Translations under genes and position numbers: made by a program | Source of the DNA: Chiua virens | Taxonomy: Eukaryota; Basidiomycota; Agaricomycetes; Boletales; Boletaceae | NCBI GenBank assembly: GCA_019787685.1 | Contig: JAHNUO010000002.1 | Coordinates: 2,232,001 to 2,296,000 of the forward strand | Reading direction: 5' to 3' | Length of the DNA: 64,000 nucleotides | Part shown: positions 35,988 to 50,834 of the stretch, piece after piece | Numbering within the stretch: the stretch's first letter is position 1 | How the letters are laid out: each line of letters opens with the position of its first letter | Notes under the pieces: generated by a model | What the model saw: the letters and a program-made list of their open reading frames with translations, nothing else | Databases searched by the model: none | What the model was told of the DNA's origin: nothing

Positions 35988-38275
35988 TCACATATCCATG
36001 GTTTCTATGTAAGCTGCTACCTTCTGGGCAACGTCGGGTTCCAAGTGGCACCGTTTTGTCAGGATGCGGATCAGGTCCTTCCCTCTTGGTAACACCAAAC
36101 CAACAAGTGCACTCAATCCGCTCAATAGTCGACCGAGCCACGGCTCCGATGGCATCGAGAATTTGCCTTGGTCAGCATACTGCCAGAGCAGATCCTGAAC
36201 TGCATTCCTCGACTCGGCGTACTTGGGATGACCTTCCAGCGTGGTGATGCATGCATGGCCACCGATATGAATCCCATTCTTCTCCAGCGTCTTGACATTG
36301 CGCCCCCACCATTCGTTCATGTCGGGTTCCCGCTCGAGATGCGTGACTGCCAACGCAATCGGAACTTGTCTCTTGCCGAGCACCTCGTAAAAGAGACGAT
36401 AATTGCTCCGCATGGTCGTTGTCACCCTGCTTCCACGTATACAAAACAGAAAAAGACTAATCCCACCCGAGGCATTGAGTCGCTGTATCAACTCGGCCGC
36501 TTTCTCGATGGCGCCCATGTATCCGTTCGCGCCTCTCTCCGGTTCCTCGAGCCCGACCGTGTCCCAGAGCCGGATCGTAGCCGGACCAAGTTGGAACTGG
36601 TATTCTGTCGATGCAAGTGTACACGCGACGCTGTCGGGCGAGATATCAGCGACGTCCCACCCCGCGAGGAGGTTGACAAGCGAGCTTTTGCCGACGCCGG
36701 TTTCACCAAACAGGATGACATGGATGTCTTGTGCGGGGGTGCTACGTGGCGTGAGGGCATTGTCGATGATCAAATCGCGCACGAGACGTTGGCATTCGTC
36801 GCGACGCCCTGGGATTGGGGGGTGCGCATCGTCGGAGAGGGTAGTGATACAGGCGTGCGCAGTAAATGACATGTGGAAACCTGACACGGTGTTTGCGTTG
36901 GTGTACCACCATTGATCCATGGCGGCGAGGACATCGTCGCGCGCGTCGGATTTACGCTCGAGTTCGGTGATGACGGCAATAAGGGGTGTGTCGGGGGACA
37001 CGCGGTCGCGGAGTGCGAGGACGGTATCGTAGGTCTGTTTCATGCTCTTGGTGACTCGGCGGCCACCTCTGAAACAGACGATGAGGAGGTGTATGCCTGC
37101 GCCTTTGCCGAGTTCTGTGAGGAGGGCCTGGAGTGCGCTGTGTGCGTGTTTGGAGGAGGAGCTCCCCAGGGGGCCTTCGCCCAGTCCGGGGGTATCCCAG
37201 AGACGGAATGTTTGTGTTGGCGAGAGATGCCAGTCATGGTAGCTCGTGCCGACGGTGACAGCACGTACATCGCTCGCTGCGACGGCGCTGTCTGCGCCAA
37301 CCACGAGATTGATGACTGAGCTTTTCCCGACGCCAGTTTCGCCTACGACGACGATGTTACAGGTGAGCTTGACTGAGAGACTAGAGAGGGCATCGGTCTT
37401 CTGGAGGGACCCGCCAAACGCGGCGAGCGGGAGGGCGTGGTCAATGAGAAGGTTCCTTGCGAGCCGTTGGCATTTAGCATGGCGACCTGGCATTTGCGGA
37501 TGACAGTCGTCGAGGAGCGTGGTGAGGCAAGCATGACCGCAAAATGCCATGTCGAACGCAGCCAACGCACTCTCGTTGCTCGTCCACCAGTCTTCCATGG
37601 AGGCAACGATGTTGGCTTCGTTGCAACGTTTCTCTAGTTCGGTTATGACGGCCACGATGGGGATTTGTGGGGAGACCTGGTCGCGAATGCGTTGAATGAT
37701 ATCATAGGTCTGCTTCATGCCCTTTGTTATCCGTGCAAGGCCGCGCATGCACAGGACAAGGAGGTGCACCCCGCCTTCTTTGCTAAGCTCTTGAAAGAGC
37801 GATCTCAATGCATGCTGGGCGGCCTTTGGTGAGACGCTCCCAAACGCTCCCTCACCCAGACCTGGCGTGTCCCATAGGCGAAACGCGTGCAGTTGGGTAT
37901 CTGTTTCCCAATCGAACGGACATGTACGGGTGGTGACACCGCAGACGTCGTTGGCAGTGGTCGCGCTGTCGGTGCCAGTGACGAGGTTGATAAAGGAGCT
38001 TTTACCAACCCCAGTTTCACCTGCGACGATGACGTTGCGGGGGATGAGGTGTGAGGAGGAGCTTGTCGAAAGGGTTGGTTAGGTTTGTCCACGTGTCCGC
38101 CCAAGCGAGTTGTTTGCTTACCTAGATTTCCCAGATGAATTGCCTGTGACTCTGACTGGCATGGGTGGATATGATGTTGCAGGTGGTTAGGACGAATTGT
38201 GGGCTTGAAGAGTTTGGATGAGAAGGCGTTTGACAGGTTGACTTGGCGCGTGCACGTACCTCTGGTGGGAGGCAT
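35988..38275 (-). CDS. Protein with three tandem P-loop GTPase domains
   Basis: Exons 38260-38275 (16 nt), 38122-38155 (34 nt) and 35988-38061 join to a protein of about 707 residues. It has three successive G domains, each beginning with GETGVGKSS (about residue 31, then about 37350 and 36710 in the DNA). G3 is DTPGLGE in the first two and DTVGLEE in the third. A DxxG is followed in each by a W-rich segment and a conserved HAC(I/L)TTL motif, perhaps the G5 loop. VITELE takes the place of the usual TKxD G4 motif. The C-terminus has a hydrophobic LLSGLSALVGLVLP stretch. The layout resembles AIG1/IRG-like GTPases of the TRAFAC class, a group with immune roles in animals and plants. The role here is unknown. 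The two micro-exons are supported only by phase and splice consensus. Confidence 0.8.
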
Positions 38276-40850: not shown

Positions 40851-40855
40851 AATTT
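40851..40855. repeat. Target-site duplication AATTT, left copy
   Basis: AATTT directly precedes the 5' LTR and is repeated at 47752-47756 directly after the 3' LTR. A 5-bp duplication is typical of Ty3/Gypsy integration. Confidence 0.93.
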
Positions 40856-41287
40856 TGTTATGATACCAACTTTTCCTCACTTCTCTACTTCGACATTCAA
40901 TCTATTCTAAACATAAACGCCTCATGTCAAGGCTGTCCAAAGGATCATACCCGATTGGCTGCCACAATAACACAACACGCACATAACACATGCCTCTTAT
41001 CTTTTCATTTCCCTTATCACTGACTCATCATCGGCAGTGCAAGGCTATGCTCTTATCTATGACTCATATCGATTCACACCTTATCATCCAATAGGATACA
41101 TTATGCTTATCTACGTAGTTCATACTCAGATTAGAACTCCGATATCCATGTAGTATATAAACCCCATGAATGACAGCCAGAGAGCTCTAACAAAGTTCTC
41201 TTGGAGTTTTCGCCTCTCATCTGGACTGAACCCCCTCTCACTTCATCCACTACACTTTACAGTCTAGATTTGTTCTAGGTTGTTTCA
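40856..41287 (+). repeat. 5' LTR
   Basis: TG...CA-bounded LTR of 432 bp. Inferred U3 is 40856-41188 with a TATA box at 41154-41160; R and U5 run from 41189 to 41287. Only one difference from the 3' LTR was seen. Confidence 0.95.
41154..41160 (+). promoter_or_regulatory. TATA box of the LTR promoter
   Basis: TATATAA lies 29-35 nt upstream of 41189, the RNA start suggested by the self-primer match. The same box occurs in the 3' LTR at 47618-47624. Confidence 0.7.
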
Positions 41288-41300
41288 TTAGAACTTTGTT
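41189..41300 (+). promoter_or_regulatory. Tf1-type self-primer pair: RNA 5' end and primer-binding site
   Basis: aacaaagttct at 41189-41199 is the exact reverse complement of agaactttgtt at 41290-41300, which starts 2 nt after the LTR end where a primer-binding site must lie. The match is 11 nt, and mismatches follow on both sides. In Tf1 the first 11 nt of the RNA fold back on the PBS and serve as the reverse transcription primer. The distance from the TATA box agrees with a start at 41189. No tRNA-type PBS is seen. Confidence 0.85.
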
Positions 41301-41385
41301 GCTTTCTTCGCCGTCGAAACTACTGTCAAGTCCCTCGACCTCGTCGTAGCCGTCTTACCACTAAACAAGAGGAACAAGCGCACAG

Positions 41386-42087
41386 AGTAAGTCGCAACCC
41401 TTTGAACGGAAGATTATATCCTCTTCAGAAGCCGCTCGAGACCAAAGGTCCATATAGCGCAGAAGACGATAGCGCGCCCCTTGACGCTTATTGTCCTCTT
41501 TACTGAGACCACAAAAAATAGTGTCCAACCTCCCTCTCTCTGCTATCGCCGCCGCTCAGGAAGCTTTCCCTGACCTCGTTGACGAACCCTACGTCTTCGA
41601 CGCCGCCTACCTTGCAGAAGTTGTCGCCTTAGAGGATTTAGATCCCGAGGACCGTACCGACACTGAGATCTTCCACGCTCTACTAGGGCATTTCTTAGGA
41701 GACGATTCATCGCTCCCAGACTACTCAACCACCAGAGAGTCAACCCGGTCCGACAGCCCGGCATTACGGTATCCAACAGAGGAACCAGAGATTAAACGGG
41801 AATACTTCCCCGCTCCCATCCCTGAAAGAGAACCGTCCCCATTCCCACCTGCTCCATTACGAGAACCTTCCGAGGAAAGTTTTGGAGACCCTAACGATTG
41901 GCTCCCACCTCGTGAGATTGAAAGAAGAAACGCACGTACAGAGTTAGAGAGAAAAAGGATACTTAGACGCTACAAAGCAAATCGAGTACCTACTCACATC
42001 CGCCCATACTCACAGTACGAAAACGTCGAGCGCCCCTACTTTAGGCCTCGAAACACCCTTAAAACACCTAGGAGATACATTCAGTAG
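41386..42087 (+). CDS. ORFa: ATG-less leader ORF, acidic/proline-rich, possible spliced start
   Basis: The frame is open from 41485 to the TAG at 42085-42087 but has no ATG. If the segment 41387-41521 is an intron (donor gtaagt, acceptor aatag), A41386 joins TG 41522-41523 to form an ATG in this frame, giving a protein of about 189 residues that starts MSNLPLSAIAAAQEAF. The N-terminal half is acidic (EDLDPEDRTDTEIF). The middle is rich in Pro, Glu and Ser. The C-terminal third is basic and Arg/Tyr-rich (ERKRILRRYKANR). No known domain is recognised. A non-ATG start on unspliced RNA is the alternative. The stop codon abuts the ORFb ATG. Function unknown; it is not a Gag, which follows separately. 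Confidence 0.6.
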
Positions 42088-42357
42088 ATGCTTGCTTACT
42101 TCATCTTCGCAGCAATCTTTGTAATCTTCCTTACAATCGTTTTTATCTTCTACCAAATCTCAAAGAATCTTATCGATTACCAAAGATCCTTAAACTTCAG
42201 GATCCAAGTCAACGAATACACGGTTATCTTTGCCCTCTACGCTCCCTACGAACAACAAGACTACCAGTACCAGGCACCCCCCGTTATTAACAACACCGCC
42301 GGTCCTTGGAACGCACCAGTAAACGCAGGCGATTGGGACAATCAAACCGATAACTAA
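42088..42357 (+). CDS. ORFb: 89-residue protein with one N-terminal membrane segment
   Basis: ATG 42088 directly follows the TAG of ORFa. Residues 1-23 are strongly hydrophobic (AYFIFAAIFVIFLTIVFIFY), followed by QISKNLIDYQ and a polar Tyr/Gln/Asn-rich tail. The stop TAA (42355-42357) lies 2 nt before the gag ATG (42360). Its start context is weak (T at -3, C at +4), while gag has A at -3. On unspliced RNA this is the first ATG from the 5' end. It may be a single-pass membrane protein. It is too small for a known Env, and no relative is recognised. Confidence 0.65.
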   Translation: MLAYFIFAAIFVIFLTIVFIFYQISKNLIDYQRSLNFRIQVNEYTVIFALYAPYEQQDYQYQAPPVINNTAGPWNAPVNAGDWDNQTDN

Positions 42358-42359
42358 AT

Positions 42360-43532
42360 ATGTCAGGATACACCTATGCCACCGCCCTCAAAGATCTGAA
42401 CAACCAATCGTTGAACGATGGAGATCGTCTCACGGCATCGGCTTGGCTGGTCCAAGAATTGACAAATGTAGTAGCCACGTTAGAAAATAAGATCAACGCT
42501 GGAGCAGCAGCACCAGCGACCACCTCATCAAAAGTCGAAATATTCGCAGACCCCGGTCTCTATGATGGAGATCAAACCAAATTCGAAGAATGGTGGGCTA
42601 AGATGAAAGGATGGCTCGACATCAATCAGAGGGCTATCGCCCCTGATTCACACCATGCGGTACTCGCCGTACTCTCACGTCTCAAAGGAGCAAAAAGCTC
42701 GCAATTCGCCGAGACAAGATTAGCTCAAGGTTCTAAACTCACATGGGCACAGCTAGTCGTGGACATAGAAGGAATGTTCCGACAAAACAATAAAGTAGAC
42801 TGGGCTCGTACCCAATTGGAAAACCTGAAACAGGGTAACATGAGGGTCAAAGACTTCATAGTCCGATGGGAAAATCTGTGGCAGCAAGCCCAGATCGATC
42901 CCACACACGCCATAAGACTTCTGGAAACGAATACCGCCAGAAGTATAATATTCCAAATCTTCAAAGACGGACAACGGCAAGACCCGAACGATCCGATCTA
43001 CATGAACCCGAAACATCCTGCTTTCATTGATGACCGCAACCAAGCAGTTATCAAATACCTCGCCGCTATTCGCACGGCAGGCAACTCCTTCGAGTCAATC
43101 AATTATGTCCGAGGAGAAAGAAACTGGAAACAGAAGGACCCCAATGCAATGGACATAGGGGCCGTAACATACGAACAAGACGAAGACGGCTGGTTTACCG
43201 GTAAAGAAGTAAGGGCATTTGGTCAGAAGAAGGCCAACCCCAACAACAAATGCTTCAACTGCTCGGAGAAGGGACATTACCCTAGGGATTGCCCTAAACC
43301 CAAAGTGCAGTGTCCGGAGTGCAAATACTACGCCGGAAACCATAAAGCCTCATGTGGCAAAACTCGAAAAGCGAGATCCACATCTCAAAAGGAAACCCCT
43401 AAGGCTTCTACCTCTTCAGTTCCGGATAAGGACCCCTTTGCGGCCATCCGTGGAATGACCCCTGAAGAAGTACAAGCGTATTATTATGACAAATATGAAA
43501 CCGAAAAGAAGGGAAAAGGCAAGGCGAACTGA
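42360..43532 (+). CDS. gag: Gag polyprotein of the Gypsy element
   Basis: The 390-residue protein has a retrotransposon Gag core (YDGDQTKFEEWWAKMKGWL, WAQLVVDIEGMF, MRVKDFIVRWENLWQQA), a PMDIGA-like DPNAMDIGAVTY segment and one CCHC knuckle CFNCSEKGHYPRDC followed by CPECKYYAGNHKASC. The tail is Lys-rich. It forms the particle and binds element RNA. The frame is 0; its last 34 nt overlap pol, which is in the -1 frame. The first ATG is in good context. Confidence 0.92.
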   Translation: MSGYTYATALKDLNNQSLNDGDRLTASAWLVQELTNVVATLENKINAGAAAPATTSSKVEIFADPGLYDGDQTKFEEWWAKMKGWLDINQRAIAPDSHHAVLAVLSRLKGAKSSQFAETRLAQGSKLTWAQLVVDIEGMFRQNNKVDWARTQLENLKQGNMRVKDFIVRWENLWQQAQIDPTHAIRLLETNTARSIIFQIFKDGQRQDPNDPIYMNPKHPAFIDDRNQAVIKYLAAIRTAGNSFESINYVRGERNWKQKDPNAMDIGAVTYEQDEDGWFTGKEVRAFGQKKANPNNKCFNCSEKGHYPRDCPKPKVQCPECKYYAGNHKASCGKTRKARSTSQKETPKASTSSVPDKDPFAAIRGMTPEEVQAYYYDKYETEKKGKGKAN

Positions 43533-46500
43533 GTAAACTGGGATCTCACGTTCGCACAACCCTTCCTAAAAACTATGAAAACACCGTTTCTTTAAAGTTT
43601 GATTTCGCCTATTCCGAAACACCTCCTTGGCAAGAGGATAAACTACCCAAATCACCAAAAACAACAGAAAACGAAAGCGTTGACAGCGTCTCTGCGGAGC
43701 GTGGCGGACACGATAGTTCCGTGCTTAATTCTGTCCCAAAACAAATACCCGATGGGTCTTTCATTAGATCAACATCGGTAGAAAAAGAAATTATATTACC
43801 AATTTTGGTATCCCCAGTAAACCAAATTGGCTATGTTGGAGCAAAAGCGCTTTTAGATAGTGGAGCTAATGCGATCTTCATACACGAGGATTACGTCGCT
43901 AAGCACAAACTTCCCACTCATGCGCTACCACATGCAATACAAGTCTTCAACGTGGACGGAACCAAGAATCAAGCGGGTTCTATTACTCACGCCACACAAC
44001 TATTGATCGATTACAAAGGACACAGGGAAATAGTGGATGCTGAAATTACCAACCTGGGAAAGAACAACCTTATCCTCGGATATACATGGTTAAAGCACCA
44101 CAATCCCCATATAGATTGGTCCACTGGATCGGTTGTAATGCGGAGATGTCCCGAATCATGTCATTCCCAAGAGGAAGACGATTTCTTGGATTCCATTATC
44201 GCAGAAGAACTTAAATATGCAAACTCTATCGCGGAATCCCGTATTTTTACCGCAAACATGGAAACTCCACCTTCTCCTCCTAAGGAACGCACTCTTGAAG
44301 AGATGGTCCCACGAGAGTATTTGAAATATGCTAAAGTATTCGGAAAGACGGAGTCCGAAAGGATACCATTACGCAAACCATGGGATCACCACATTGACCT
44401 AAAAGAGTCTTTCGTTCCCAAGAAGGGTCGCTTAATACCCCTCTCTGTCACAGAACAAGAGGAGGTCTCCGCATTTATTGATGACCAACTAAAGAAAGGA
44501 TACATCAGACCCTCTAAGTCCGAACAAACGTCCCCGGTCTTCTTTGTCCCTAAGAAAGATGGAAAGAAGCGTATGGTCCAGGATTACCGATATCTAAACG
44601 AACATACAACTAAGAATAACTACCCCTTGCCGCTCATTTCGCAGCTTGTGGATAAATTAAAAAACGCTAAACTTTTTACGAAAATGGATCTCCGATGGGG
44701 ATACAATAACGTACGCATCAAAGAAGGCGATGAATGGAAAGCAGCATTTGTCTGCCACCGAGGTTCCTTCGAACCCATCGTCATGTACTTTGGATTATGT
44801 AACTCACCAGCAACGTTTCAAACTATGATGAACGAAATCTTTGCCGATATGAACGGCGTCGTTGTCGTATACATCGATGACCTTATGATTTTTACAGATA
44901 CTGATGACTATGAAACTCATGACAAAATCGTACTCGAAGTGCTTAAACGCCTCGAAGAGAACGATCTATACGTAAAACCCGAAAAATGCTTCTTCCGCGT
45001 AAAAGAAGTGGATTTCCTCGGAATGATCGTGGGAACTGATGGAATAAAAATGGATAATGAGAAAACCAAAGCAGTCGCTGAATGGCCTACTCCCACCTCA
45101 GTAAAACACATCAGAAGTTTCCTCGGACTTGCCAACTTCTATCGCAGATTTATTAAAGATTACGGAAAAATAGCACGACCTTTACATGACCTTACTAAAA
45201 AGGACCAAAAATTTGAATGGACCTTCGCTTGTGACGAAGCATTCACTATGCTTAAGAAGGCTTTTACGACAGCCCCTATTCTAGCTTATCCGGATCAGAA
45301 TGCCAAATATCGCTTAGAATGCGATTCATCGGATTTCGCTACGGGAGCAGTTCTATCTCTTGAAAAGGAAGGACTTTGGCACCCTGTCGCTTACAATAGC
45401 CACTCTATGACACCAGAAGAACGGAACTACCCTATAGCCGATAAAGAAATGCTCTCGGTTATCCGCTCTCTAGAACTATGGCGCCACTATCTCGAAGGTG
45501 CAAAACATGAATTTGAAATATGGAATGACCACCAGAACCTTACGTGGTTTATGACACGCCAAGATCTTAACAGAAGACAAGCAAGATGGGCACAATATCT
45601 CTCACGCTTTAACTTCACTTGGCACCACAAAGCTGGAGTCACCATGGGAAAAGCAGATGCTCTAAGCAGACGAGAAGATCACATGATCGGAATCGAAGAT
45701 GATAACAAAGGAATCCTTCTCATGGACCCATCTAAAATCAGATCTGCCGTCACTCTCCTATACAATGGTGATCAATTCTTATCTGACGTACAACATGAAA
45801 CAATGAAACTATCACCAAATGCCATGAAACACCTACTTTCTATCGGATACAAAGTCGAGGACGCCTTCCTTAGAAAGGGGGATAGGATCTTCATTCCGGA
45901 TGCATTACGCACCAAATCTATAACCATGTTTCATGACACACCAGAAGCAGGACATCCCGGCTATGATAAAACTCTAGAACTTCTATCCCGAACATACGTC
46001 TGGCCTCGAATGAATGAAGAAGTCAAAAATTATGTCTCACACTGTGAAAGATGCGCTCGCTTCAAGGGTTCTAATCAGAAAACAGCAGGACTCCTGCAAC
46101 CCTTAGAAACACCGTCATTACCATGGGAAGATATCTCAGCAGATTTCATCACAGATCTCCCACTTTCACACTCCTATGATTCCATTCTCACGGTTGTGGA
46201 TCGCTTCTCTAAAGAAGTCGAATTCATTCCCTGCCACAAAACGTGTACTTCTATGGAACTCGCTAAATTATATCTCTCACACATATGGAAACATCATGGC
46301 CTCCCTAAAACCATCATATCGGATAGAGGACCACAATTCGCTTCCCAACTTATGAAAGATATATGCTCAGGGTTAAAAATAACGCCCAAATTAAGCACCG
46401 CACATCACCCACAGACGGACGGACAATCAGAACGAATGAATCGAGAAGTGCAACAGTATCTTCGCATGTTCTGTGCTGAGAAAGATAACACATGGGTCGA

Positions 46501-47374
46501 TTGGCTCCCTCTCGCACAATTCTCATACAACAGCAAGAAACACACTGCCACTAAATTCTCACCATTCGAAATCACACGTTCCTACGTCCCTAGAATGGGA
46601 ATTATGCCACAATCCATGAAAAACCCGGCTGCTCAGAACTTCATTACGGATTTTTCCGACATTCTAGAACAAACCAAATCTAATATAGATAAAGCCGCGG
46701 AAAATATGAAAAACATAGCAGATAGATCGAGATCAGAACCCCCTTCCTATTCGGTTGGCGATAAGGTCTGGCTCTCTACCACAAATCTAAAAATAAAACA
46801 ACATCCAAAATTCACGGATAAATGGATTGGCCCCTATGACATAATCTCTATGCACGGTCCGAACGCTCTAAAGCTTCGACTCCCACGCACTATGCGAATA
46901 CATCCAGTCGTAAATATTTCTCAGGTTAAACCATATAAGGAACATCTACCAGAACAGCCGGTATACAAACCACGCCCTGTCGTAATTGGAGATGACCGAG
47001 AAGAAGAATTCGAAGCAGACTATATTGTCGATTCACGAATGAAAGGACGACGCTTAGAATATCTCATACACTGGAAAGGTTATGATGATGACGAAAGAAC
47101 TTGGGAACCCCTAAAGAATCTGAAGAATGCGCCAGATCTCATATCTGACTTCCACGAAGCACATCCAGATGCCCCAAGAAAACTAAAAGTCACACAAACC
47201 GAATTTAACTCCATGTTCCGAACCTACGACGATAAAACTTTACACGAAGATGAGGATAGTCTCCATCATCTCAATTATGAAATGGATCATTCGGAGTCTG
47301 ATCAACAGAAGGGGGATAGTGTTACGATACCAACTTTTCCTCACTTCTCTACTTCGACATTCAATCTATTCTAA
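43499..47374 (+). CDS. pol: Pol polyprotein: protease, RT, RNase H, integrase, chromodomain
   Basis: The frame is open from 43499 without an early ATG, so it needs the upstream frameshift. Order: aspartic protease (LLDSGANAIFI), reverse transcriptase (KKDGKKRMVQDYRYLN, FTKMDLRWGYNN, YIDDLMIF), RNase H (LECDSSDFATGAVLS), an HHCC zinc region (GHPGYDKTLELL...HCERCARFKG), integrase core with Asp in SADFITDLP, Asp in ISDRGPQFAS and Glu in TDGQSERMNREVQ, a GPY motif (DKWIGPYDII) and a chromodomain (YIVDSRMKGRRLEYLIHWKGY...TWEP). This identifies a chromovirus; the chromodomain directs insertion to marked chromatin. The last 18 codons lie inside the 3' LTR. Confidence 0.95.
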   Translation, partial: NRKEGKRQGELSKLGSHVRTTLPKNYENTVSLKFDFAYSETPPWQEDKLPKSPKTTENESVDSVSAERGGHDSSVLNSVPKQIPDGSFIRSTSVEKEIILPILVSPVNQIGYVGAKALLDSGANAIFIHEDYVAKHKLPTHALPHAIQVFNVDGTKNQAGSITHATQLLIDYKGHREIVDAEITNLGKNNLILGYTWLKHHNPHIDWSTGSVVMRRCPESCHSQEEDDFLDSIIAEELKYANSIAESRIFTANMETPPSPPKERTLEEMVPREYLKYAKVFGKTESERIPLRKPWDHHIDLKESFVPKKGRLIPLSVTEQEEVSAFIDDQLKKGYIRPSKSEQTSPVFFVPKKDGKKRMVQDYRYLNEHTTKNNYPLPLISQLVDKLKNAKLFTKMDLRWGYNNVRIKEGDEWKAAFVCHRGSFEPIVMYFGLCNSPATFQTMMNEIFADMNGVVVVYIDDLMIFTDTDDYETHDKIVLEVLKRLEENDLYVKPEKCFFRVKEVDFLGMIVGTDGIKMDNEKTKAVAEWPTPTSVKHIRSFLGLANFYRRFIKDYGKIARPLHDLTKKDQKFEWTFACDEAFTMLKKAFTTAPILAYPDQNAKYRLECDSSDFATGAVLSLEKEGLWHPVAYNSHSMTPEERNYPIADKEMLSVIRSLELWRHYLEGAKHEFEIWNDHQNLTWFMTRQDLNRRQARWAQYLSRFNFTWHHKAGVTMGKADALSRREDHMIGIEDDNKGILLMDPSKIRSAVTLLYNGDQFLSDVQHETMKLSPNAMKHLLSIGYKVEDAFLRKGDRIFIPDALRTKSITMFHDTPEAGHPGYDKTLELLSRTYVWPRMNEEVKNYVSHCERCARFKGSNQKTAGLLQPLETPSLPWEDISADFITDLPLSHSYDSILTVVDRFSKEVEFIPCHKTCTSMELAKLYLSHIWKHHGLPKTIISDRGPQFASQLMKDICSGLKITPKLSTAHHPQTDGQSERMNREVQQYLRMFCAEKDNTWVDWLPLAQFSYNSKKHTATKFSPFEITRSYVPRMGIMPQSMKNPAAQNFITDFSDILEQTKSNIDKAAENMKNIADRSRSEPPSYSVGDKVWLSTTNLKIKQHPKFTDKWIGPYDIISMHGPNALKLRLPRTMRIHPVVNISQVKPYKEHLPEQPVYKPRPVVIGDDREEEFEADYIVDSRMKGRRLEYLIHWKGYDDDERTWEPLKNLKNAPDLISDFHEAHPDAPRKLKVTQTEFNSMFRTYDDKTLHEDEDSLHHLNYEMDHSESDQQKGDSVTIPTFPHFSTSTFNLF
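43511..43555 (+). promoter_or_regulatory. Candidate -1 ribosomal frameshift signal
   Basis: GGGAAAA at 43511-43517 is in the gag frame as G GGA AAA and matches the X XXY YYZ rule. After a 6-nt spacer, gcgaac (43524-43529) can pair perfectly with gttcgc (43550-43555). The pol frame is open from 43499, so a -1 slip here fuses Gag to Pol. No ATG occurs in the pol frame before the protease region. Confidence 0.75.
47307..47316 (+). promoter_or_regulatory. Polypurine tract
   Basis: agaaggggga ends 3 nt before the 3' LTR (47320) and is the expected plus-strand primer site. It lies within the pol reading frame. Confidence 0.75.
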
Positions 47375-47751
47375 ACATAAACGCCTCATGTCAAGGCTGT
47401 CCAAAGGATCATACCCGATTGGCTGCCACAATAACACAACACGCACATAACACATGCCTCTTATCTTTTCATTTCCCTTATCACTGACTCATCATCGGCA
47501 GTGCAAGGCTATGCTCTTATCTATGACTCATATCGATTCACACCTTATCATCCAATAGGATACATTATGCTTATCTACGTAGTTCATACTCAGATTAGAA
47601 CTCCGATATCCATGTAGTATATAAACCCCATGAATGACAGCCAGAGAGCTCTAACAAAGTTCTCTTGGAGTTTTCGCCTCTCATCTGGACTGAACCCCCT
47701 CTCACTTCATCCACTACACTTTACAGTCTAGATTTGTTCTAGGTTGTTTCA
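47320..47751 (+). repeat. 3' LTR
   Basis: 432 bp, identical by eye to the 5' LTR except for C at 47325. Followed by AATTT, the right target-site copy. It contains the end of the pol frame (stop at 47372-47374). Confidence 0.95.
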
Positions 47752-47756
47752 AATTT
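47752..47756. repeat. Target-site duplication AATTT, right copy
   Basis: Matches 40851-40855. Confidence 0.93.
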
Positions 47757-49627
47757 CCCATGTACAAAGCCCACCTAACAAAGATTCTTGCACCCTCCAC
47801 ATCTCCGAGTTTAATAAAACTATTAGTAAAGAACTCGAGAAAGGCCGCTATCGCGGCCCCTTCTCCCTTAATGAATTACTTCACCTAATTGGTCCGTTCC
47901 AATCCTCCCCCATCTCCATCGTTCCCAAACCTGGGCGTCCCGGTAAATTTAGACTAGTGCAGAATTTTTCATTCCCTCTCACCCTCTCGCCCTCTTTCCC
48001 AAACCCATCCGTCAATTCCCTCATTGCCACGGACAAATTCCCGGCCACTTGGGGTAAATTCTCCATAATCTTTCTGCTCATTGCTCGCCTCCCACCCGGC
48101 TCCCAAGTAGCCACGAGAGACATAGCCGAAGCCTACCGCACCATTCCCCTACACCCCTCCCAATGGCCCGCATCCGTCGTACGTGCCCCAGACGAAAATT
48201 TTTACGTCGACACTTGCCTCGCATTTGGCGCAGCCCCCTCGGCTGGCGTGTATGGCCACCTTGCCGACGCAGCAGCAGAAATCTTCCGATTCCACGGCAT
48301 TGGTCCCCTTGACAAATGGGTAGATGACCACATCTTCATCAGGATAAAGCCTCACTATATAGATAATTACAACAAACTTAGAGCCTCATGGCACGCGGAC
48401 ATAACCAAGAACGGCACCATCAAGCAATCAGGCAGCCGCCTATGGTTTGCCGGAAAATCCCATGAACATGGCCATGCCGAAGAGTTCAATGAGGACTGTG
48501 CACATCCCATCCGGGACTACTCGCGCTTCCCCTCATCACCTAACAATGAGAACTCTTTCTCTTACTCTTTCGCAGACATCAACCGCATCTCGCAACAACT
48601 AGGCATCCCATGGGAAACCTCCAAGGACCAACCCTTCGGCCCCTCAACCATCTACATTGGCTTCAAGTGGGATCTGGAGGCACGGATGGTCTCACTTGCG
48701 CCAGATAAGGTAACCAAATATCGCGCGGCCATTAACGATTGGCGCACCAGAACCGCCCACACCCTCAAAGACGTACAACAAATGTACGGCAAGCTCCTCC
48801 ACGCCTCCTCTGCCCTCAAAGAAGGCCGCGCGTACCTCGTCGGACTTGAGCGCATGCTCAAAATCTGCTCCGAAAAACCTTTCATGCCACATCGCCCAAC
48901 ACGCGCGATCGCGAAAGAACTAGATTGGTGGGACGACAACCTCTTAAAAGGACAAGTCCAAACCCTGATCACTCCCCCTCCCGAGTACACTGACATCGCC
49001 GCCTTTTCAGATGCCAGCTCTGGCATGGGCATTGGTATCGTCATCGGCAACCAATGGAGGGCATGGAGACTCATACCAGGCTGGAAAGACGCCAGGGGTT
49101 CCACCCGCGACATTGGATGGGCTGAGGCCATTGGCTTCGAACTCCTTGTCCTCACCATCCTCCATTTACAGCCGAAATTCCCGCACATCCTCATCCATGG
49201 GGATAACACCGGAGTTGTCGAAGGATGGTGGACAGGCCGCCACCGGAACACTGAAGTCAACAGCGTCTTCAAACGCATACATCGTGCGATCGCTGAGGCA
49301 AATTCCCTCCGATCCATACAGACAACCTATGTTCCCAGCGCGAGCAACCCAGCAGACGGGCCATCAAGGGGCTTCTTTCCCTCAATGTCCCTTCTCCTTC
49401 CGCGCCTTCCCATCCCTGCCCCCCTGCTCCCCTTCATTGTCGACGTCACAGATCCCCTCACTCCAGTCGAGCTCCAGCACGCTGCTAGTCCGCCACCCAC
49501 CCCTCAGTCGCGTTCCTCGCCTGACCTCCACCTACGTGCCAACAGAGCCCGTAAACGCCTACAAAACCAGCAGTGCGAGGAAGACACTCTCATCAGAGAA
49601 ACTCTCCGCCTCGAACCCTCGTTTTAA
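47757..49627 (+). CDS. DIRS-type reverse transcriptase / RNase H (3' part, 5' end across the insertion)
   Basis: The frame continues the coding left of the Gypsy element (40441-40855, ATEWQTAITEASLNDRYGDIPHGL...). It contains the RT palm: SPISIVPKPGRPGKFRLVQNFS, RDIAEAYRTIPLHP, the FGAAPSAGVYG block and the catalytic KWVDDHIF. An IYIGFKWDLE region and an RNase H follow, with SDASSGMGIGIVIG, AIGFELLVL, HGDNTGVVEGWW and a late SNPADGPSRG. The Trp/Gly pattern and the VDD motif fit DIRS/Ngaro RTs and not Gypsy. It ends in a Pro/Ser-rich tail with the recombinase ORF in another frame right after. No nonsense codon is seen in this part. Confidence 0.85.
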
Positions 49628-50834
49628 TCGCCCCCTACCTACCCCCACCTCTGGATCCTCGACCAACAACTCTGCTCCTCGTCCTTACCCCCCCTCCCTC
49701 GTTCCAGATGCATCCCCCCTCCGTCCACACTGCCGAGCCAGGGACAGACTAAGGCTCTGGCAACCGTCCAATGCACCTCCCAGACAATTGCTCGACAGTT
49801 CTGGCCATCCCATTACCATACCAGAAGAAAACCTCAACCGGATCCTTGAGGTAATCGACACTTCCTGGTCGGAAAAGACTAAAGAAACCTACGGCGCAGG
49901 ACTTCTTGCTTTCCATGTGTATTGCGACATTAATGGCATCCCAGATGAACAACGTGCTCCCACCTCCCAACCCCTACTCACTGCCTACGTGGCAAGCTGC
50001 GCTGGGGCATATTCAGGTTCAGCCATCGTGAACCATGTGGCTGGACTGAGAGCCTGGCACCTCCTCCATGGCCTACCATGGCTCCTCAACACGGACGAAA
50101 CCAAAGCCATCAAAGAAGGAGCAGCTCGTCTTGCCCCAGCTTCCAGCTCTAAACCCAAACGTGTCCCATTCGAAAGATCCCACCTACTCTCCTTCCTCAC
50201 GTACATGGACCCTTCCCACCCCCGTGACGCAGCCATCCTCGCGTGCATATTGGTAACTTTCTATTCAGTGTCTCACCTCGGAGAATTCACAGTCCCTTCG
50301 ATCGACAAATTTAATGCTTCCCCCACGAAGTACATACTTCGCAAACATGTCAAATTCACCCTCGAAAACATACCCCCTTCGGTCTCCTTCACATTCCCGA
50401 GAACCAAGTGCTCTAAACCTGGCAATACTGAGTCTGCCTATTGTGCGCCCATCAATCACCTCACAAACCCGGTCAACTGGCTCAACAATCACCTAGCCAT
50501 CAACCAACCAGGGGACTCTGACCATCTCTTTGCCTGGCGACACCACAAAGGACTCCGCCCCCTCACAAAGCTTGAAGTTACCAGACGCATCAAGGAGATC
50601 GTGGCACAACGAGACTTGCCAGATCTCAAAGGCCACAGCCTCAGAATCGGCGGCACACTACATTACCTCCTAGCAGGTACTCCATTCGACGTTGTGAAAA
50701 CCATGGGCCGCTGGAAAAGTGATGCCTTTACCTTATACCTCCGTAAACACGCAGTCATTCTAGCCCCATATCTTCAAGAACGCCTGGACATCGTCCAAAC
50801 ACTCACCTCACATGCTATGCCCCCTGTTCGCTGA
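49600..50834 (+). CDS. DIRS-type tyrosine recombinase
   Basis: The ORF (frame open further upstream; the exact start is unknown and it probably follows RT by an overlap or splice) encodes an N-terminal SAM-like core (LNRILEVIDTSWSEKTKETYGAGLLAFHVYC) and a catalytic domain. The box II motif HSLRIGG, the GRWKSDAF tryptophan and the TLYLRK tyrosine are present. The first catalytic Arg is expected in R-L-G-E; here the sequence is SHLGEF, with CAC in place of an expected CGC. These enzymes integrate element DNA in place of DDE integrase. The change may inactivate the protein. Ends at TGA 50832-50834. Confidence 0.8.

Follow-up and report, generated by a model that had tools for sequence, protein, structure and literature searches.

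A chromovirus of Chiua virens with two small genes before gag, probably read by start-codon scanning and optional splicing

We analysed 64,000 nucleotides (nt) of the fungus Chiua virens (positions 2,232,001 to 2,296,000 of contig JAHNUO010000002.1, forward strand), called the window below; coordinates are those of the window unless a copy is named. The window contains a long terminal repeat (LTR) retrotransposon, a chromovirus (Ty3/Metaviridae) of the self-priming type, in which two small open reading frames (ORFs), ORFa and ORFb, stand between the 5' LTR and gag. Its features are the following.

40856..41287, plus strand: 5' LTR, 432 nt, TG...CA, found by a 300-nt repeat search and LTR comparison
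41189..41199, plus strand: predicted RNA 5' end and self-primer, AACAAAGTTCT, the exact reverse complement of 41290-41300
41189..41386, plus strand: leader exon 1, without ATG; its final A would be the first base of the ORFa start codon
41290..41300, plus strand: primer binding site (PBS), AGAACTTTGTT, just inside the 5' LTR end; self-priming, Tf1-like
41387..41521, plus strand: putative intron, with donor GTAAGT at 41387-41392, a branch-like ACTGA around 41502 and acceptor TAG at 41519-41521
41386 joined to 41522-42087, plus strand: ORFa as predicted after splicing, 188 amino acids (aa), stop TAG at 42085-42087
42088..42357, plus strand: ORFb, 89 aa, stop TAA at 42355-42357, N-terminal membrane helix
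42360..43532, plus strand: gag, with Retrotrans_gag and a CCHC zinc knuckle; ATG with A at -3
43499..47374, plus strand: pol frame, with protease, reverse transcriptase (RT), RNase H, integrase and chromodomain
47320..47751, plus strand: 3' LTR, followed by AATTT at 47752-47756

The two LTRs differ at a single position, 40861, and the 5-nt target repeat AATTT behind the 3' LTR is also found before the 5' LTR, at 40851-40855. The RNA start at 41189, already proposed in the initial annotation of this locus, is well founded, since self-primer and PBS are exactly complementary (11 of 11 nt). This complementarity was kept in 56 of the 57 copies tested (L044 was not covered), and in a third lineage, described below, both partners had changed (positions 1114 and 1220 of L070) and the complementarity was retained with other letters. 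The pol frame matched the Pfam families RVT_1 (2.3e-32), RT_RNaseH (1.5e-32), rve (2.4e-9) and Chromo (3.9e-15). Membership of the Caulimoviridae, which are without LTR integration machinery and have a movement protein in the main ORF, does not agree with the LTRs, target repeat and integrase present here.

The genome searched comprises 48.3 Mb in 136 contigs. Together with the window we collected 39 copies at 77-95% identity and another 19, at 75-82%, that were found through the RT, which makes 59. Of these, 58 were scored; L056 was set aside from the frame counts, its acceptor being AAG. L068 (a match of 99 nt only) and L011 (overlapping L012) had been dropped before counting, and the first 93 nt of L044 lie outside the match and were left uncounted (an earlier count had two ATGs upstream of its match). 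Gag was located in 46 of the 58 copies, so that the number of copies with ORFa, ORFb and gag all open, at least 28 of 58, is a lower bound; in L049-L067 only the first part of gag is covered. The copies are related and hence not independent, and no overall P value is given. In L058 (1-2801) two leader matches stand in tandem, at 89% and 78% identity to the window, which suggests nested or neighbouring insertions. A second chromovirus family (RT 65% identical; L071, L072) was intended as a control and was not used: its LTR and RNA start are undefined and it has unrelated long frames.

Between the RNA start and 42087 we counted no ATG in the window, in agreement with the initial annotation. As it had also stated, the first two ATGs are those of ORFb (42088, T at -3) and gag (42360, A at -3), and ORFb has no ATG inside. 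The expectation of about 14 ATGs by chance was, however, too high: it is about 11 by base composition and 4.1 by the dinucleotides of the region itself, and under the latter null a count of zero in the window, taken by itself, has a probability of about e^-4 and is no more than moderately improbable. Of the 64 trinucleotides, none is as depleted in 41189-42087 as ATG, and five 899-nt stretches of gag-pol, counted as a control, contain 13-29 ATGs each. In the window, 9 ATGs lie in the U3 immediately before the RNA start (9 and 11 in the two U3s counted), therefore the depletion starts where the RNA starts. Synonymous shuffles of the window gave 1.9 expected ATGs for ORFa (0 found, P 0.08) and 0.9 for ORFb (0 found, P 0.33); ORFb alone, with 0 ATGs against 1.3 expected, is too short to be telling. 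The weight of the depletion comes from its replication across copies and in the third lineage, whose leader cannot be aligned.

Regarding the other copies, the depletion held: the path from the RNA start to the 3' splice site was free of ATG in 56 of the 58 scored, and in 31 of the 58 no ATG was found as far as the end of the open ORFa frame. The 28 copies with three open frames had a single ATG between RNA start and 3' splice site, where the dinucleotides predict 52, and 11 out-of-frame ATGs in ORFa versus 52 in synonymous shuffles. Moreover, ORFa had no internal methionine in any of these 28. Extra ATGs averaged 0.83 per copy without three open frames versus 0.43 with them.

The initial annotation had implied for ORFa a start at a non-AUG codon. 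Such a start is not needed, because conserved splice signals offer an AUG in frame; the earlier reading had missed the intron that would make it. Joining the A at 41386 to the TG at 41522 creates an ATG in frame with ORFa (MSNLPLS, MTSLPLS and similar). With a slash for the splice junction, A/GTAAGT stands at 41386/41387 or its equivalent in all 59 copies, and the full pattern A/GTAAGT...YAG/TG, with the acceptor at 41521/41522, in 58 of the 59. When the 58 scored leaders were aligned, identity was 100% in the columns of the A, donor hexamer, AG and TG, and averaged 74% in the intron body. Among copies the intron measures 130 to 141 nt, with length differences that are not divisible by three, and despite these changes 50 of 58 copies keep ORFa open over 183-188 aa. 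Ahead of the acceptor, the more distant clade has CTTAACTGAC, which we take to resemble a textbook branch point. ORFa thus probably has an AUG made by splicing, and its context would be weak (C at -3 in 56 of 58 copies). Two other splices from the same donor were considered and dropped: for an acceptor near the ORFb ATG, the CAG before that ATG is not kept among copies, and for one near the gag ATG, no AG is present in the last 14 nt ahead of it in the window.

The contexts of the two following AUGs differ. At -3 of the ORFb AUG there is a T in 55 of 55 copies scored, whereas gag has A or G there in all 46 scored of the 58. The ORFb proteins fall into two types, B1 (89 aa, MLAYF..., 26 copies) and B2 (81 aa, MSWEL..., 31 copies), and L036 has lost the start; the T at -3 is a base of the ORFa stop codon in 24 B1 copies, and is unforced in 31 B2 copies. 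The end-to-end arrangement of the ORFs that had been noticed is exact in the window, where TAG at 42085-42087 is followed by ATG at 42088 and ORFb stops 2 nt before gag. The ORFa stop is at 0 nt from the ORFb AUG in 24 of 26 B1 copies, and at 11-17 nt in 16 of the 19 B2 copies measured; the remaining two and three copies have a broken ORFa. From the ORFb stop to the gag AUG there are 2 nt in 31 of 42 measured copies. This adjacency is not conserved in the third lineage, where the two gaps are 117 and 51 nt, and therefore it is secondary and not the core of the design. The conserved trait is the AUG-free scanning path and not the adjacency.

The third lineage consists of L069 and L070, which are 99% identical to each other and count as one observation. 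Its RT protein is 85% identical to that of the window and its leader is not alignable. This leader runs for 987 nt without ATG, ATG is the most depleted trinucleotide there too, and the order is again ORFa', ORFb' and gag, the first two with 207 and 141 aa; ORFb' has a membrane helix and lacks internal ATGs, and no other ATG stands before gag. The -3 positions are T for ORFb' and A for gag. Out-of-frame ATGs number 0 in both ORFa' and ORFb', versus about 2 expected in each (P 0.04 and 0.03), and by these counts this lineage has conserved the avoidance of AUG. ORFa' and ORFa have the C-terminal motif RPRxxLRxP in common. A single AG/TG candidate lies in frame at the start of ORFa', giving MSTCLSF..., and a split start codon is probable here, though not proven. 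Just upstream of this element, in L070:1-364, there is a frame whose translation, to the eye, resembles the end of a Tc1/mariner-type transposase.

We compared the substitution rates in 21 pairs of three-open-frame copies. The ratio of non-synonymous to synonymous rates (dN/dS) was 0.05-0.20 in ORFa, 0.03-0.16 in ORFb and 0.04-0.16 in gag (undefined for gag in 4 pairs), with dS near saturation in many of the 21. Judged by these ratios, ORFa and ORFb are protein-coding genes under strong purifying selection.

Taken together, we give a probability of about 0.74 to the reading that ORFa, ORFb and gag form a three-gene 5' region read by start-codon scanning and optional splicing. On the unspliced RNA, which doubles as the element's genome for copying, the first AUG would be that of ORFb; some ribosomes would initiate at this weak AUG and the rest would continue scanning as far as gag. 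Removal of the small leader intron would create the AUG from which ORFa is made, and since this AUG is weak too, some ribosomes on the spliced RNA may still pass it and reach ORFb and gag. Such leakage past the ORFa AUG would explain why ORFa is poor in internal AUGs. How efficiently the intron is spliced would thereby govern how much ORFa is made relative to ORFb and Gag. The badnavirus-like leaky scanning suggested by the initial annotation fits the AUG-free path, the weak ORFb AUG and the stronger gag AUG; a non-AUG start of ORFa, as in rice tungro bacilliform virus (RTBV), probably does not hold.

Several observations weigh against this reading. Extra ATGs occur in 27 of the 58 copies, including 10 of the 28 with three open frames; they are few, and 18 of these 28 have none. 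Likewise, a broken ORFa is combined with an open gag in 4 of the 58 copies. In the third lineage the donor is not GTAAGT and is ambiguous (A/GTGGGT or A/GTATTG), the AG/TG is out of frame with ORFa' in 3 of 6 sequences examined (L074-L076, partial elements of a sub-lineage), and L076 carries one ATG in the leader. The ORFa start codon reads GTG in the unspliced RNA, which would permit a weak non-AUG start. No intronless copy was seen with two junction patterns, which allowed up to 3 mismatches so that old spliced copies could escape; the first pattern had seven matches, all with 3 mismatches, versus three for its reversed control, and they look like chance, and the second had none. The lack of intronless copies itself counts for the reading, as it is expected if only the unspliced RNA is reverse-transcribed. 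Finally, all the evidence comes from one genome, the copies are part of the family (40 of 429 and 150 of 509 first-look candidates were scored), and the 20 sequences taken from the second search were mostly chosen because their pol frames are long and open, a choice that favours intact leaders.

Three other explanations of the leader have to be considered. ORFa could be translated from the unspliced RNA, without any splicing, from a near-cognate codon (GTG, or CTG or TTG further up), with ORFb and gag reached by leaky scanning, in the manner of RTBV, whose ORF I is described as starting at AUU (PMC5902531). A GTG does stand just before codon 2 of ORFa in the unspliced RNA of 58 of 58 scored copies, which is true by construction because they were scored on YAG/TG. 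In 27 of the 58 no near-cognate codon but this GTG follows the in-frame stop that lies five codons upstream, and eukaryotic ribosomes initiate poorly at GUG. A near-cognate start also leaves unexplained an invariant A/GTAAGT situated 130-141 nt upstream in a stretch that otherwise diverges, and we regard this explanation as unlikely.

Sites where a stop and a start codon together serve reinitiation are known from fungal victoriviruses and from non-LTR elements. The TAGATG of the window, followed by gag two bases past the ORFb stop, could similarly couple the end of ORFa to a restart at ORFb and then at gag, and the frequent gaps of 0 nt in B1 copies and 2 nt before gag speak for it. However, the longer gaps of B2 and those of the third lineage do not, and coupling alone needs no AUG-free ORFa or leader, yet freedom from AUG is precisely what is conserved; the coupling is in our opinion quite unlikely. 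The desert might also be a by-product of a C-rich, methionine-poor composition, the leader ORFs being unimportant. That the dinucleotide null expects only 4.1 ATGs, and that the window shuffles gave P values of only 0.08 and 0.33, agrees with this; nevertheless, ATG is the most depleted trinucleotide in both the window and the third lineage, the U3s hold 9 and 11 ATGs, the third lineage shuffles gave P 0.04 and 0.03, and ORFa and ORFb are under strong purifying selection, so that we disfavour composition as very improbable.

Regarding the proteins themselves, ORFa has a net charge of -16 in its N half and +7 in its C half. AlphaFold2 predicted it, with low overall confidence, to be mostly disordered with one long helix at residues 129-152. 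ORFb reaches a hydropathy of 2.94 over 19 residues from residue 2; its AlphaFold2 model has a helix at 2-30, perhaps a beta hairpin after it (low confidence), and a tail with Trp and acidic residues. ORFb-like stretches were found at 58 places of the genome at 42-100% identity, 40 of them without internal stop. The B2 proteins are 27-36% identical to the ORFb of the window, and both types have in common the N-terminal hydrophobic helix and F, Y and W positions. B1 and B2 each occur with both leader/gag clades (among the 46 copies with gag, A/B1 11, A/B2 13, C/B1 14 and C/B2 8). Between the clades the dN of gag is 0.26-0.30, far above the 0.02-0.13 of ORFa and ORFb. The comparison of copies points to leader cassettes that may have been exchanged between element families at around 42061 of the window, for example in L020, L054 and L057.

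Searches of protein databases gave no relative of ORFa at E<=0.01 and none of the ORFb alignment at E<=0.1. Pfam had no significant match for either (the best for ORFa, E 0.38, was below the cut-off), PDB sequence searches with both found none, and neither did an IMG/VR search with the RT-RNase H piece. Gag, searched in protein databases, had 44 relatives at 27-43% identity (ena 41, jgi 2, nr 1), as sequences without genomic context. In our reading the particle pathway would include ORFb as a small membrane protein, and ORFa would act as a regulator that binds RNA or nucleic acids.

In the usual plan of self-priming chromoviruses gag comes directly after the leader, and gag and pol are usually the whole gene set. 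The element shares with the Tf1-like self-priming Ty3 elements of fungi the LTRs, the self-primer, the zinc-knuckle gag and the RT-RNase H-integrase-chromodomain set, and differs from them by the two extra ORFs and the leader intron. The initial annotation knew of no Ty3 element with this plan; nevertheless, the MDG1 group of Drosophila Ty3/gypsy elements (412, mdg1, Stalker) carries two small ORFs, sORF1 and sORF2, between LTR and gag, with low non-synonymous/synonymous rates (PMC11952523, a preprint). As with ORFb, the second MDG1 ORF encodes a short protein with one membrane segment; it was proposed to drive cell-to-cell transfer, for which, as the preprint notes, a genetic requirement was not shown, and the preprint reports no evidence of splicing and ascribes a short sORF1 RNA to early polyadenylation (PMC11952523). 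The differences are that sORF2 has an N-terminal ectodomain of about 30 residues, whereas ORFb has none (its best hydrophobic 19-mer begins at residue 2, 6 or 8 in the three types), and that the N-myristoylation motif MGxxxS/T, seen in 4 of 6 fly sORF2s, is absent from the ORFb N-termini MLAYF, MSWEL and MIYIL. No sequence relation between the small ORFs of MDG1 and those of the chromovirus is shown, and they are probably convergent.

In RTBV ribosomes scan about 900 nt, since ORFs I and II have no internal AUGs, and P4 is made from a spliced RNA (PMC5902531). The likeness to the badnaviruses and RTBV therefore comprises two AUG-free ORFs before the main one, inefficient early starts, some 900 nt of scanning and an extra protein from spliced RNA. 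Unlike RTBV, however, ours is an LTR element with integrase and chromodomain, the ORFa AUG apparently arises by splicing, there is no leader AUG for a shunt upstream ORF, and splicing would serve the first ORF and not, as in RTBV, a distal one. In green algae, AUG depletion ahead of the second ORF marks bicistronic genes read by leaky scanning (PMC11892635). Among plant Ty3/gypsy elements, Ogre and Diaspora have a similarly long distance between LTR and gag, in Ogre with an ORF there, and the same source noted in 2005 that an intron ahead of gag was not on record for any LTR retroelement (PMC1142308). The literature that we searched, open-licence papers seen in part, held no report of the ORFa-ORFb-gag plan in fungi.

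Cer1 of Caenorhabditis elegans makes CERV from a spliced RNA, and CERV serves the nuclear exit of the unspliced RNA (PMC10309623). The likeness lies in an accessory protein from spliced RNA and in the need of the element to bring its unspliced RNA out of the nucleus; CERV differs in its 517 aa and its 5-exon mRNA, with exons 1-3 in the frame of gag, and no sequence relation to ORFa is claimed. By this analogy ORFa, which would be made only after splicing, is a candidate for a role in export of the unspliced RNA. A wider proposal, which we put forward as speculative and rather unlikely in its entirety, is that of a self-contained splicing switch between ORFa and ORFb/Gag, with ORFa promoting export of the unspliced RNA in a feedback loop and ORFb as the fungal counterpart of the MDG1 membrane proteins proposed for cell-to-cell transfer, for example across hyphal fusions.

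Farther along the element, gag and pol overlap by 34 nt (43499-43532) with pol in the -1 frame, and pol is perhaps produced by -1 frameshifting. Beside the element, at 47732-50834, lie long open frames in which Pfam finds weak matches to the C-terminal domain of a viral polymerase and to phage-type tyrosine integrase, perhaps a tyrosine-recombinase retroelement, DIRS-like or similar. On the minus strand, at 35988-38078, three stretches of a 696-aa open frame match MMR_HSR1-type GTPase domains.

Thus, the scanning and splicing reading would combine in one retrotransposon leader two devices that are each known on their own, leaky scanning past genes devoid of AUG and a start codon interrupted by an intron, and the combined plan would be conserved between unalignable lineages of one genome. 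It would offer a simple and testable case, unusual for a mobile element, in which splicing selects the proteins that a retroelement makes. It would also place before gag, in fungal chromoviruses, small membrane proteins of a kind that in insect elements has been tied to cell-to-cell transfer.

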